In this document: in pieces, positions 52,564 through 56,719 of the stretch
Layout of the letters: the number at the start of each line of letters is the position of its first letter
How positions within the stretch are numbered: the stretch's first letter is position 1
Origin: Candidatus Leucobacter sulfamidivorax
GTDB lineage: Bacteria > Actinomycetota > Actinomycetes > Actinomycetales > Microbacteriaceae
Reading direction: 5' to 3'
Assembly: GCA_016771945.1 (NCBI GenBank)
Contig: QZLF01000002.1
Span: forward strand, 310,001 to 374,000
Length of the DNA stretch: 64,000 nt
Program-made: the position numbers and the translations under genes
Notes under the pieces: generated by a model
What the model was told of the DNA's origin: nothing
Database searches by the model: none
Seen by the model: the letters and a program-made list of their open reading frames with translations, nothing else

Positions 52564-52842
52564 GATTGGTTCCCTTCGCGAAGGCGGAACTCCCCATCCC
52601 TCAGAGAACTCGACCGCAAGGCATATGCAATGAGATTCCCATGAGATTCCCGATATTGATGTATGGATTCACAGCATAGGAACATCGCCCCGATGGGAGT
52701 CAATGGTCGATCGAGTACTGGGCGCGAAGTTCCAGTGCGTTGTCGCGCTGGCCCCGAGCGATCCGCGGATGCCGCCGGCCCGCATCGAACGGGGAGCTCC
52801 GGCCGAGCCGTCCACCGCCCACCGAGCATCTATGCTGATTCA

Positions 52843-54372
52843 GTGTCAACACTGCGCAATCTCGCCACGAAGTACTCGACCCTCGACGCGGAGCAGGTCG
52901 AATGGCTCGAACTGCTGATGCTCGACTGGGCGCTGCTCGCCGATCTCGCCCTCGGCGACGTGGTGCTGTGGGTGCCGACCGACGATGGCAACTACCTCGC
53001 CGTCGCCCATAGCCGGCCCGCCGGCTCGGTGACCCTCTTCTACCGCGACGTCATCGGCGACTACCTGCGCCCGGACTGGCGGCCCATCGTCGACGAGGCC
53101 ATGGCCACTCGGCTGCCCGTCGAATCGCGCGCGCCGATCTGGTACGAGGAGAACGCGATGCGGCTCACCGCCTACTCGGTGAGCCGGCGCGAGGAGGGCA
53201 GCGGCTCGAGCACGGGGCGCAACACCGACACCGGAGTCATCTCGACCGGGGCGCAGAGCGAGCCGTTCGCGGTGATCACCGTGCACACCGGGGTATCCGA
53301 CGTGCAGGGCGCCTCGCGCATCGGCATCGCCTTCCGCGAGGTCGCGGCTGATCTGCTCGGCATGATCCAGCAGGGGCTCTTCCCCTCGCCCGGCACGACC
53401 CGCGGACGCGAGCGCGGCGCCCCCCGCGCCTCCGACGGCCTCGTCCGGGTCAACCTGCAGGGCATCGTCTCGTTCGCGAGCCCCAACACGCAGACGACCT
53501 TCACCCTGCTCGGCTACCGGGACGAGCTCGAGGGCGAGAACTTCTCCGAGGCCATCGCCGAGATCGTGCGCGGCCAGTTCGACACCAACGAGTCGTTGCC
53601 GCTCATCGCGCAGGGACGGGTGGCCAAGCGGGCTGACATCGAGGCGAACGGCCGGGTGGTCACGCTGCGCTCGATCCCCGTGATCCGCGACGAGCAGCGG
53701 ATCGGCGGCATCGTGCTCACCCGCGACGTCACCGATCTGCGTCACCAGGAGCGGGAGCTCATCACCAAGGATGCGACGATCCGCGAGATCCACCACCGGG
53801 TGAAGAACAACCTGCAGACCGTGGCGTCGCTGCTGCGGGTGCAGGCCCGGCGCGCCCGCAGCGAGGAGGCGAAGCAGGTGCTCGGCCAGGCGATGCGCCG
53901 CGTCGCGGCGATCGCGGTGGTGCACGACACGCTCTCGACCGGGCTGTCGCAGATCGTCGACTTCGACGTGGTCTTCGACCGGGTGCTCGGACTCGCCGCC
54001 GAGGTGGCGAGCCTGCACAACACGGTCGTGCATCCGCGCAAGGAGGGGCGCTTCGGCGAGCTGCCCTCGGAGTACGCGACCCCGCTCGCGCTCGCGCTCA
54101 CCGAGATCGTGACGAACGCGGTGGAGCACGGCCTCGCCGGGCGCGAAGGCGAGGTCTTCATCAGTGCGGATCGCACCGAGGACCGCCTCGCCGTCGAGGT
54201 GATCGACACCGGCACCGGCCTTCCCGGCGGGACCGTCGGCGACGGGCTCGGCACCCAGATCGTGCGCACCCTCGTCGAGGGCGAGCTCGGCGGTTCGATC
54301 ACCTGGGGCCCCGACGTGCGCGGCGGCACGCGGGTGTCGATCCAGATCCCCCTGAGGTGGATCAGGACGTAA
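52843..54372 (+). CDS. PdtaS-like sensor histidine kinase
   Basis: A 509-residue cytosolic kinase of the HisKA_2 group. It has an N-terminal GAF-like domain (~1-150), a PAS domain (~195-300), the phosphorylated His in EIHHRVKNNLQTVASLLR (His317/318), and a HATPase with EIVTNAVEHGL and DTGTGLPGG. This matches PdtaS, which phosphorylates the RNA-binding antiterminator PdtaR. No PdtaR-type gene is in the window. The GTG at 52843 was chosen over upstream starts because TATGCT lies 6 nt before it (leaderless) and the family match begins there. Confidence 0.9.
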   Translation: MSTLRNLATKYSTLDAEQVEWLELLMLDWALLADLALGDVVLWVPTDDGNYLAVAHSRPAGSVTLFYRDVIGDYLRPDWRPIVDEAMATRLPVESRAPIWYEENAMRLTAYSVSRREEGSGSSTGRNTDTGVISTGAQSEPFAVITVHTGVSDVQGASRIGIAFREVAADLLGMIQQGLFPSPGTTRGRERGAPRASDGLVRVNLQGIVSFASPNTQTTFTLLGYRDELEGENFSEAIAEIVRGQFDTNESLPLIAQGRVAKRADIEANGRVVTLRSIPVIRDEQRIGGIVLTRDVTDLRHQERELITKDATIREIHHRVKNNLQTVASLLRVQARRARSEEAKQVLGQAMRRVAAIAVVHDTLSTGLSQIVDFDVVFDRVLGLAAEVASLHNTVVHPRKEGRFGELPSEYATPLALALTEIVTNAVEHGLAGREGEVFISADRTEDRLAVEVIDTGTGLPGGTVGDGLGTQIVRTLVEGELGGSITWGPDVRGGTRVSIQIPLRWIRT

Positions 54373-54622
54373 TCGCATAGAGGAGAACGCATCGCGTTTT
54401 CCCGCGATTGCGTCCCGGCGGCACCGCGCCGGTGATCGCATAGAGGAGAACGCATCGCGTTTTCCCGCGATTGCGTCCCGGCGGCACCGCGCCGGTGATC
54501 GCATAGAGGAGAACGCATCGCGTTTTCCCGCGACTGCGTCCCGGGCCCACCGGCCCGGTGATCATATTGAGGAAAACGCGGAGCGTTCTCCATGATCAGG
54601 TCCCGGCGCCACTGCGCCGGTG
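54372..54622. repeat. Four tandem 63-bp structured repeats
   Basis: Copies begin at 54372, 54435, 54498 and 54561. Copies 1 and 2 are identical. Copy 3 differs mainly in one hairpin. Copy 4 is diverged and 62 nt long. Each unit can form two hairpins. The first has the stem AGGAGAACGC/GCGTTTTCC. The second is GC-only: CCGGCG/CGCCGG in copies 1-2, CCGGGCC/GGCCCGG in copy 3, CCGGCGC/GCGCCGG in copy 4. Both arms change together, so pairing is maintained. The array fills the space between the convergent ends of the PdtaS-like gene and a membrane-protein gene. It has no coding signature. Confidence 0.85.
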
Positions 54623-54647
54623 AGGCGACCTGGCGCGGTGCTTCGGC

Positions 54648-55061
54648 TCAGCGCCGCCGTGCGCTGCGGATCGCGATGGCGATGCCGACCCCCAGCAGCA
54701 GGGCGCCGAGCCCCAGCACCGTCGCGGTGATCCAGAGCGCCGTGTCGACCCCGCCGGGGAAGAGGACCCGCTGCACGGCATACGCGCAGAAGGCGAGGAT
54801 CAGGCACCCCCACACGATCGGGCCGGTGCGCGGACGGGGACGCTCGGGCTGGACCGGACCGGCCGGCTCCGCCGCGACGGGGCTATCCGCCGGAGCGGAG
54901 CCGCCGCTCGTCGCACCGTGCTCGGCCGGTCGCCCGGCAGGGCCCCCCGCGTCCTGCTCGACGGTCGGCCCGGTGCCGGCGACCGACTTGGGGTCGACGG
55001 TCGGTCCCGTGGGCTGCTGCTCTGCCGGCCGCTCGGCGGGCTGATCCGCTGTGGCGCTCAT
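54648..55061 (-). CDS. Small membrane protein with disordered N-terminus, PspC operon
   Basis: A 137-residue protein. Residues 1-~78 are a Pro/Ala/Glu/Thr-rich tail, followed by two membrane helices (about 84-102 and 110-132) and a basic end (IRSARRR). No family recognised. Its ATG overlaps the stop of the PspC gene (ATGA), so it is the coupled second gene of that operon and probably belongs to the same envelope-stress system. Confidence 0.75.
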   Translation of the reverse strand: MSATADQPAERPAEQQPTGPTVDPKSVAGTGPTVEQDAGGPAGRPAEHGATSGGSAPADSPVAAEPAGPVQPERPRPRTGPIVWGCLILAFCAYAVQRVLFPGGVDTALWITATVLGLGALLLGVGIAIAIRSARRR

Positions 55062-56719
55062 GATGCGTACTCCAGGGTCGTGCGCCCGATCGCGGCGCTC
55101 GGTGTCGGATTCGAGCTGGTGCTCGCAGGCGCGCTCGCATTCGCGAAGCGGTCGACGAGCTCGGGCGATGCGTTCGAGCCGTTGACGCTCACGTTGCCTC
55201 CGACCAGGTAGACCCTGATCCGGCTCACCTCGTCGGCGTCGGCCCCGCGCAGATTCGCCCCGATGACCTGATGGGGGAAGGGCCCCGCCCGGTAGCGGCG
55301 CTCGCCGTCGGCGTCGGTGTCGGCGATGTTGCCGCCGATGAGGCCCACGTTCACGATCACGGGCTGCTCCTCGGGGAGGTCGATCGTCGCGTTGCCGCCG
55401 ACCATCCAGAGGGAGAAGCTCTGCCCCTCCTCGATCCGGCTCAGATCGACCGTCGCATTGCCGGCGATCATGACGAGCCCGGGCGGGCTGTGCTCGGTGA
55501 CGGCGATCTCGGCGGAGCCGAAGAGATGCACCCGGCTGCCCCACGGGATCACCGCGGTGAAGATCAGGACGACCACACCGCAGAACGAGAGGAAGCCGAC
55601 CCAGCCGGTGCGGCGGCCGCGCGCGCCGGCGACGATGAGCGAGAGCGCCAGCACCGCCACCGCGGCGACGATGGCGGCGAAGAGCGCGCCGGCTCCGTCG
55701 CCGGGAACCGGCGATCCCAGCAGCGCGCCGCTCGTGAGCGCCCATACCGCGGCGGCCCCGGCCGCGAGCAGCGCGATCGCGAGCGTCAGCACCGTCTGCG
55801 CGGCGCCGAGCCTCGTCGCCTCGTACTGCCTGCTCCAGGCGGCCGTCTCATCGCCGACCTTCTTGCCCCATTCGTTCGCCTGCTCGCCCCATTCGGAGGC
55901 CTTCTCGTTCGCGCGCCGACCCCATTCGTTCGCCTGCCGGTTCATCCGCTCGCCGAACGACTCGGACGAGGCTGCGGCGAAGGCGGCCGATCCGTCAGCG
56001 GCGCCCGGCGATCCGGCGAAGGCGCCGGGCGATCCGCCGTCCGTGTCGGCGAAGCCGCGACCGGTCTCCGTCGATCCGCCGCCTTCCGCCGATCCGGCGT
56101 TCGTTGCGCCCGCGCCGTCCGCACCGGCCGTGCCGCCGCTCGCCGCGGTGGTCGAGCTCCGCCGCACCAGCCAGATGACGAGCCAGACGATCGCCGCCGG
56201 CAGCAGCACCGCCCACCAGATGATGCTGAAGATCGTGCCGAGCCACTCGGGATAGCCGAAGATCGGCCAGCTGTTCCACCCCCACCCGTTCGCGACGGGC
56301 ACGGCGATCGAGAAGACCAGCATGATCAGCGGCACGACGAAGATCACCCCGAGGATCACGGCCGTGACGATCACCCCGGTCGACGCTCGCCCCCGCACGA
56401 TGTCCTCCAGGTGGATGCGCCCGGACGCGTCGGGCAGCAGCAGCCAGCCCGCGAGGTAGAGCAGGAGGCCCGGCCCGCCGAGCACCGCGAGCACGACGAA
56501 GACGCCGCGCACGATGAGCGGATCGATGCCGGCTTTCGCCGCGATGCCGCCCGCGACGCCGGCGAACCAGCGGTCGCCGCTGCGCACGATGCCGATGCTG
56601 CGCAGCCACAAGAAGAACTGGTTCGAGCCGCCGCGGGGCGCCGGACCGGCTGAACCGGCCGAACCGGTCGCGCCGGCGGTGCCCTGGGGTTCGCCTGGAG
56701 GGGGAGTGGTGTCGTCCAT
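55058..56719 (-). CDS. PspC-domain membrane protein with LiaF-like C-terminal domain
   Basis: A 553-residue protein. A PspC domain is near the N-terminus (DRWFAGVAGGIAAKAGIDPLIVR, then GPGLLLYLAGWLLLPD). Further helices around residues 110-175, a Gly/Ala/Ser-rich linker, and more helices about 310-420 follow. The C-terminal LiaF/DUF2154-like beta domain has repeated G-G-N-(A/I) turns (MIAGNATVDL, MVGGNATIDL, LIGGNIADT and YLVGGNVSVNG). It is divergent from a histidine kinase that also carries a PspC domain. LiaF-type proteins restrain their kinase. CAGACT lies 6 nt before the ATG (leaderless). Confidence 0.87.
   Translation of the reverse strand: MDDTTPPPGEPQGTAGATGSAGSAGPAPRGGSNQFFLWLRSIGIVRSGDRWFAGVAGGIAAKAGIDPLIVRGVFVVLAVLGGPGLLLYLAGWLLLPDASGRIHLEDIVRGRASTGVIVTAVILGVIFVVPLIMLVFSIAVPVANGWGWNSWPIFGYPEWLGTIFSIIWWAVLLPAAIVWLVIWLVRRSSTTAASGGTAGADGAGATNAGSAEGGGSTETGRGFADTDGGSPGAFAGSPGAADGSAAFAAASSESFGERMNRQANEWGRRANEKASEWGEQANEWGKKVGDETAAWSRQYEATRLGAAQTVLTLAIALLAAGAAAVWALTSGALLGSPVPGDGAGALFAAIVAAVAVLALSLIVAGARGRRTGWVGFLSFCGVVVLIFTAVIPWGSRVHLFGSAEIAVTEHSPPGLVMIAGNATVDLSRIEEGQSFSLWMVGGNATIDLPEEQPVIVNVGLIGGNIADTDADGERRYRAGPFPHQVIGANLRGADADEVSRIRVYLVGGNVSVNGSNASPELVDRFANASAPASTSSNPTPSAAIGRTTLEYAS

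Follow-up and report, generated by a model that had tools for sequence, protein, structure and literature searches.

What is the tandem array that fills the gap between two convergent genes of Candidatus Leucobacter sulfamidivorax, and where do the matched arms of its hairpins come from? The array lies in a window of 64,000 nucleotides, the whole stretch of DNA that was analysed. A first-pass annotation had described four tandem 63-bp units at 54372-54622, the first two of them identical, and had taken their changing, still paired arms as a sign of selection on structure. Both reading and Tandem Repeats Finder (54372-54623, period 63, 4.0 copies, 86% matches) reproduced this layout, and with a score of 350 the array ranks first among the 33 rows that the program gave for the window. 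It starts at the stop codon of a plus-strand gene for a PdtaS-type sensor histidine kinase (ORF span 52663-54372, TAA at 54370-54372; Pfam matches GAF_PdtaS at 4.2e-27, HisKA_2 and HATPase_c). It ends 25 bp short of the end of a minus-strand gene at 54648-55061, whose 137-aa product has no Pfam match and whose internal start was chosen within the ORF 54648-55745.

Read on the plus strand, unit 1 (54372-54434) is built from three stems. The 5' arm of P1, GACG-TAA-TCGC, runs across the kinase stop codon (54366-54376), so that the 3' end of the gene supplies part of it. An asymmetric 5-nt bulge between P1 and P2 follows (54377-54381), inside which the energy fold closes one more pair. Then come the P2 hairpin GGAGAACGC-ATC-GCGTTTTCC (54382-54402), the 11-nt 3' arm of P1, GCGATTGCGTC, complementary to the gene end with one G-T pair (54404-54414), and the P3 hairpin with a CACC loop (54415-54432). 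The first hairpin described earlier has a longer stem than was thought, because P1 starts 6-7 nt further upstream, within the kinase gene. Unit 2 (54435-54497) is identical to unit 1, with one G-G mismatch beside the P3 loop in both, and its P1 is down to 8 bp. Unit 3 (54498-54560) departs from these two in the P3 arms and has a P1 of 4 bp. The P3 arms change between units as had been stated, from CCGGCG/CGCCGG to CCGGGCC/GGCCCGG in unit 3 and CCGGCGC/GCGCCGG in unit 4 (54561-54622). This last, diverged unit also holds the reported GATCAT/ATGATC pairing, within a P1 that we read as TGATCAT/ATGATCA.

The fold of unit 1 and its flank (54365-54432) has an energy of -42.0 kcal/mol (z -6.85), that of the whole array (54361-54625) has z -8.31, and in neither case did any of 200 shuffles equal the value. 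In the lowest-energy fold of the whole array, neighbouring units pair with one another. A known Rfam RNA family was ruled out as the identity of the array, as the Rfam covariance models gave no match up to E 5 in the part searched, 53800-55300.

Leucobacter harbours a dispersed family of structured elements, about 67 nt long, and the array is one of its members, amplified locally. Further copies of the unit were sought in the genome and its relatives and were found in both; their absence, together with a lack of significant covariation, is what the first-pass annotation had named as counting against it. BLAST of the array against 100 genomes, including its own, matched 16 of them at E ≤ 0.001; all 16 are Leucobacter, and the matches comprise arrays as well as single units. 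A covariance model was then built from 11 first units. With array units counted singly, at E ≤ 0.01 it found 323 matches, spread over 40 of the 54 Leucobacter genomes, and at E ≤ 0.1 it found 31 in the own genome; unit 4 of the window is itself a match (E 1.0e-4). Under the filters used, 14 of the 54 genomes had no match, and whatever function the element has is therefore dispensable. In a draw of 398 genomes from the wider family, the model matched at E ≤ 1e-4 in seven, six of Leucobacter and one of another genus (L177), where the copy again lies at the end of dgt; the strict filters made the sensitivity of this search low. An exact-pattern scan of public genomes returned 30 stretches. Four are in Leucobacter-type records (L. 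soli, MAG LEU1, L. massiliensis and L. weissii), and the other 26, in scattered taxa, were taken as chance; none of the four of these put to the model (L151, L152, L158 and L169) matched at E ≤ 0.001. The own genome holds a second array (L004, G000:C3:701885-702016) behind a prephenate dehydratase gene, at a site also occupied in G050 (L019) and G010 (L242). Titles and abstract openings in a partial survey of the open-licence literature describe no such element for Leucobacter or Microbacteriaceae, which does not prove its absence there.

The loci found by BLAST share a common plan: P1 of 11-12 bp, a 5' bulge of 4-5 nt, P2 of 9-10 bp closed by 3-4 nt, the returning P1 arm, and P3 with the loop CAC[CT]. 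Over 130 copies, P2 has 9-10 bp in 97 and the 5' bulge has 4-5 nt in 100. The P2 core and the P3 loop are conserved between loci, and the letters of the bulge vary (TTAG, TGAG, TCAG, TTGG and others). We quantified covariation in an alignment of 81 distinct rows, taken from 82 matches that include units of one array and fitted to the structure: double-sided changes occurred in 27 of 27 pairs, and the score was 0.714, compared with 0.183 for shuffled rows and at most 0.103 with the partner slid. The first MAFFT alignment, of 11 sequences, had already given 20 of 27 pairs and 0.576 against 0.171. Covariation across the family thus supports the earlier claim of selection on structure. With the register set from Watson-Crick pairs only, P1 held 49 G-U against 16 A-C pairs (p = 5e-5) and P3 held 19 against 7. 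P2 showed no G-U excess (36 against 51 A-C), and one of its outer columns is probably misaligned. The excess in P1 and P3 speaks for the sense strand as the object of selection, in the form of RNA or of single-stranded DNA. Two variants of the plan were seen on the way. In L127 and L228, three central letters of the P1 3' arm are reverse-complemented relative to what pairing needs, as a small inversion would leave them; and in L137, L139, L140 and L314 an additional module (CCCACGGAGCGAAGCGAGGGGTGG), in varying forms, comes after P3, and in L137 it is duplicated along with the copy.

The fetched loci held 152 matches, and 135 elements were kept after 17 later array units and reverse-strand overlaps had been removed by hand. 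By a GC-position test, the coding frame upstream is sense in 81 of the 135 and antisense in 15, and 54 have no sense frame upstream. The elements are dispersed, and 53 of the 135 contain a stop codon between positions +5 and +19, most commonly at +13 (23 copies), which is the bulge, and in 16 copies at +18 or +19, inside P2. Eleven elements are read through in frame. The eight read-through genes that were scanned (all but L049, L053 and L223) carry Pfam domains; they include UvrD/PcrA, MazG, HrpA (two loci, one with three tandem units), a solute-binding protein of ModA type, a glutamine amidotransferase of HisH type, an FAA-hydrolase/RraA protein and a phosphohexomutase. The names ModA and HisH, like ilvA and thrB below, are our presumed assignments, guided by Pfam domains. 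In the HrpA-type helicase, elements sit at different positions in different species (L037, L064, L029 and L143, the last two by eye only). One minus-strand copy (L050:1501-1564), whose P2 sequence is quite different, covers the final 7 nt of a gene for tRNA-Arg (1558-1632).

The main point, absent from the first-pass annotation, is that one arm of P1 comes from the host gene. At gene ends the P1 5' arm is made of the host's last codons, and it is native at sites where element-free relatives could be read; the P1 3' arm, carried by the insert, is reverse-complementary to the very gene end that it follows. Of the 130 copies, 106 formed at least 9 of 11 Watson-Crick pairs, compared with 4.1% when 3' arms were swapped between loci; the 130 are the 135 minus five in which the script found no P2, and they had been found with a covariance model in which pairing in P1 raises the score. 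Plain BLAST had found 18 loci, and for these the script gave a P1 of at least 11 bp in ten and a shorter one in eight. Arms differ from locus to locus (mean pairing after swapping 5.9 of 11), and 24 of 51 gene-end copies pair perfectly (11/11). The in-frame copies pair less well than those at gene ends (8.82 against 9.98 of 11, p 0.017, in-frame n = 11). Orthologous copies keep their pairing while the gene end changes. Over 16 orthologous groups (53 rows), own pairing was 10.28 of 13, compared with 8.03 of 13 with other species' gene ends (174 comparisons), and another species' end paired better than the own in 11 of the 53 rows; for dgt alone, the values were 10.1 and 7.8, the other end being better in 4 of 12.

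Three genes show that the 5' arm is native. For the window array itself, the arm starts in the kinase gene, and the evidence that such an arm is native comes from these other loci. An ilvA-type gene (PALP domain) is element-free in G017 and G031, where it ends in GGCGAGCGGTAC-stop. In G026, to which these two genomes are related at 89 and 86% in uvrD DNA, the same twelve letters are followed by TAG, the cassette and GTACCGCTCGC, which is the exact reverse complement of eleven of the twelve (11/11). With a spacer complementary to the end of its host gene, gene end and insert together form P1. In a thrB-type gene (GHMP kinase), ten letters of the arm in G017 are the same as at the native end in G026, and G031 differs more. 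As for dgt, 50 of 54 orthologues were read (all except G039, G042, G046 and G050), and the species without the element mostly have the same -PLV/-PLA end, some -SLV. At these sites, then, the 5' arm is part of the gene, while its inverse is held by the insert. These genes led us to reject the view that the element always supplies P1 itself. UvrD and the ModA-type gene are counter-cases, in which the native part of the arm is clear for only a portion. In UvrD this is because the insert sits in a linker of variable length, and UvrD was therefore set aside as an empty-site test.

Presence at dgt is patchy. The script flagged the element in 8 of 30 orthologues in one set and in 0 of 20 in the other; by eye, a copy that it missed was seen in G048 and decayed copies in G008, G037 and G047. 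In the own genome (L290), the copy lies about 25 nt past the dgt stop in the dgt-dnaG spacer, apparently at an old dnaG start. Mapped on the tree, presence requires 6 changes, at least 4 of them forced, and 90 of 500 shuffles were as low. Since the script had scored the decayed copies as absent, this count was not kept as a measure of independent gains.

Gene end and bulge recur on the far side of some elements. A direct repeat of at least 9 nt of the two follows P3 in 33 of 134 copies, compared with 0.6% of swapped controls, a figure to which tandem arrays contribute, many of the repeats being junctions of tandem units. The shortened P1 of units 2 and 3 in the window accords with direct repeats at unit junctions. 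A second mode of spread was seen in G031, where five copies (L123, L129, L132, L138 and L144, at about 1501-1568) lie within another dispersed repeat (TTGAGCGAG ... GAGTCGAAA in most) and share common flanks and a common P1 of their own; copying with a pre-existing P1 thus also occurs. Another palindromic repeat (CATCCTGCG ... CGCAGGAT in several) has copies within it or next to it in G008 (L214, L236 and L245) and G017 (L133 and L136).

We also searched for enzymes that could move the element. The Y1 transposase (PF01797) was found in none of the 54 Leucobacter genomes, compared with 5 of 14 control genomes, and was rejected as the mover on this ground. The reverse transcriptase domain RVT_1 occurs in 8 of the 54 (G003, G007, G008, G010, G020, G040, G046 and G053). 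All eight carry elements, as do 32 genomes without RVT_1, the own genome included (Fisher p 0.095); mean copy number was 10.1 with RVT_1 and 5.3 without (p 0.067). With 32 such carriers and so weak an association, reverse transcriptase was rejected as the mover as well, though it may make a minor contribution. Among these two families, Y1_Tnp and RVT_1, no writing enzyme was found.

Taken together, the matching of inserts to gene ends suggests that they are written to fit their site. Our reading, to which we assign a probability of roughly one half as a whole, is that the element is a cassette of REP/MITE-like kind, that fold-back synthesis on the target writes its P1 arm, and that selection on the sense strand then keeps it as an mRNA 3'-end structure. 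In the best-defined cases the cassette (P2 hairpin, 11-nt spacer and P3 hairpin) lies just past the last codons of a gene, with the stop codon most often in the bulge of 4-5 nt. The nascent strand would fold at P2, copy about one helical turn of the upstream sequence in reverse and then resume, so that the spacer would be written from the target at insertion or soon after. Selection would then act on the sense strand in its folded form, as an mRNA 3'-end structure, and clear away later drift of the spacer; tandem arrays may arise by duplication between the direct repeats of gene end and stop that flank the cassette. More tentatively, a single process may insert the P2-P3 cassette, often just past a stop codon, and simultaneously write an 11-nt inverted copy of the upstream sequence into the middle of the insert, which would make this a self-matched mobile element. 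From the pairing, which is observed directly, we infer the writing mechanism; the function at the mRNA 3' end we infer solely from position and orientation. Copying of this kind past P2 explains why the inverse copy of about 11 nt is exact and specific to its site. However, straight copying from P2 should copy the bulge too, yet the bulge is present and unpaired in most copies, and this is a real difficulty. Copies read in frame cannot act as 3' ends. Selection probably acts on the elements as well, given the G-U bias and their retention across species.

Could selection have made the match without any copying? A cassette with an unrelated spacer would then insert near a stop codon, and point mutations would be selected until it paired. 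The compensatory changes in orthologous copies and the sense-strand tolerance of G-U pairs are what such a process would leave; the dgt copy in another genus shows that some copies are old, and gene-end copies do pair better than in-frame ones. Nevertheless, compensatory selection alone seems unlikely to us: at the ilvA-type gene the pairing is 11/11 even with both relatives element-free, nearly half of the gene-end copies (the 24 of 51) are perfect, and the in-frame copies pair far above the swapped level (8.8 against 5.9 of 11) where a 3'-end role is impossible.

A conventional miniature transposon or REP-like repeat would instead bring its own P1 and overwrite the gene end with its arm and stop. 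The conserved P2 core and P3 loop and the shared P1 of the nested G031 copies fit this, and REPs often give a TAG stop and lie in repair genes, as stated in the part of PMC3733652 used here. It is contradicted at the ilvA-type gene and dgt and survives for copies within other repeats. As a general account it is improbable, given element-free ends that equal or closely resemble the P1 5' arm (the thrB-type gene included), arms that differ between loci, and Y1 transposase in none of the genomes.

Matching might also precede insertion, if an RNA or single strand of the element paired its 11-nt spacer with a gene end and inserted there, comparable to the EBS-IBS pairing of introns. The sequence that pairs with the spacer is immediately 5' of the insert, the pairing spans about 11-12 bp, and same-site presence is patchy between species, as at dgt, with decayed copies among the rows scored absent and 90 of 500 shuffles as low. 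But such homing leaves the origin of spacers for new sites unexplained, reverse transcriptase is present in 8 of 54 genomes and missing from the own one, and we consider it quite improbable. Least credible of all is a reading of the array as an ordinary tandem transcription terminator, a role proposed earlier, or as a VNTR, and nothing further: the position between convergent genes and the strong hairpins agree with it, but no hairpin with a T run was found on the sense strand in 54200-54800 (one weak match on the minus strand), and related copies lie in frame in UvrD, MazG and HrpA.

How does the fold-back reading stand beside known systems? The REP world is the nearest described kind. REPs are short palindromic repeats, dispersed and mostly 3' of genes, which often provide a TAG stop and sometimes sit in replication or repair genes, according to the part of PMC3733652 on which we draw; the Leucobacter elements share the gene-end position, the stop codons and the insertions in repair genes. 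By contrast, a REP is a palindrome of 20-40 bp with a GTAG or CGTC end, and the Leucobacter element has 67 nt, two hairpins, a third, host-derived stem and no constant GTAG/CGTC end. The transposase differs too, the Y1 family of the REP/RAYT system being absent from all 54 Leucobacter genomes searched. The label of REP-like element, one of the roles first proposed, thus does not hold under the GTAG/RAYT definition.

Rickettsia palindromic elements are likewise inserted in frame into unrelated proteins, as the same partial source describes (PMC3733652). Among the Leucobacter elements, 11 of 135 are. The likeness lies in this in-frame placement, and the Rickettsia elements are not known to have a host-copied arm. 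Like MITEs, the Leucobacter elements are short and dispersed; the direct repeats that some copies have at their site, in a count to which tandem arrays contribute, may be target site duplications. Unlike MITEs, they show on reading no terminal inverted repeats, the P2 and P3 ends not being inverted copies of each other; the inverted pair consists of the host end and an internal, variable, site-specific spacer; and no parent element was identified among the two enzyme families searched. Nor are they retroelements judged by reverse transcriptase in carrier genomes, which is limited to the eight named above. They add a mobile-looking repeat family, without an identified enzyme, found on gene ends and inside conserved proteins.

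In mechanism there is a likeness with template switching, which has been proposed to create and maintain hairpins: a reverse-complement copy of adjacent sequence can make a perfect stem in one event and keep the match (PMC8794818, in the part consulted). A spacer that is the reverse complement of adjacent, pre-existing sequence is what we find at the ilvA-type gene, over 11/11 letters and with two element-free relatives. That source, in the same part, treats a general mutation mechanism and regards the origin and continued matching of base-paired RNA stems as an open question (PMC8794818), whereas in Leucobacter the same architecture, with a conserved cassette, recurs at many unrelated sites. 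Within this one genus there are many replicates of an insert that complements coding sequence, and wherever element-free relatives are readable that sequence was there before the insert, so that copying by template switching and compensatory selection can be told apart.
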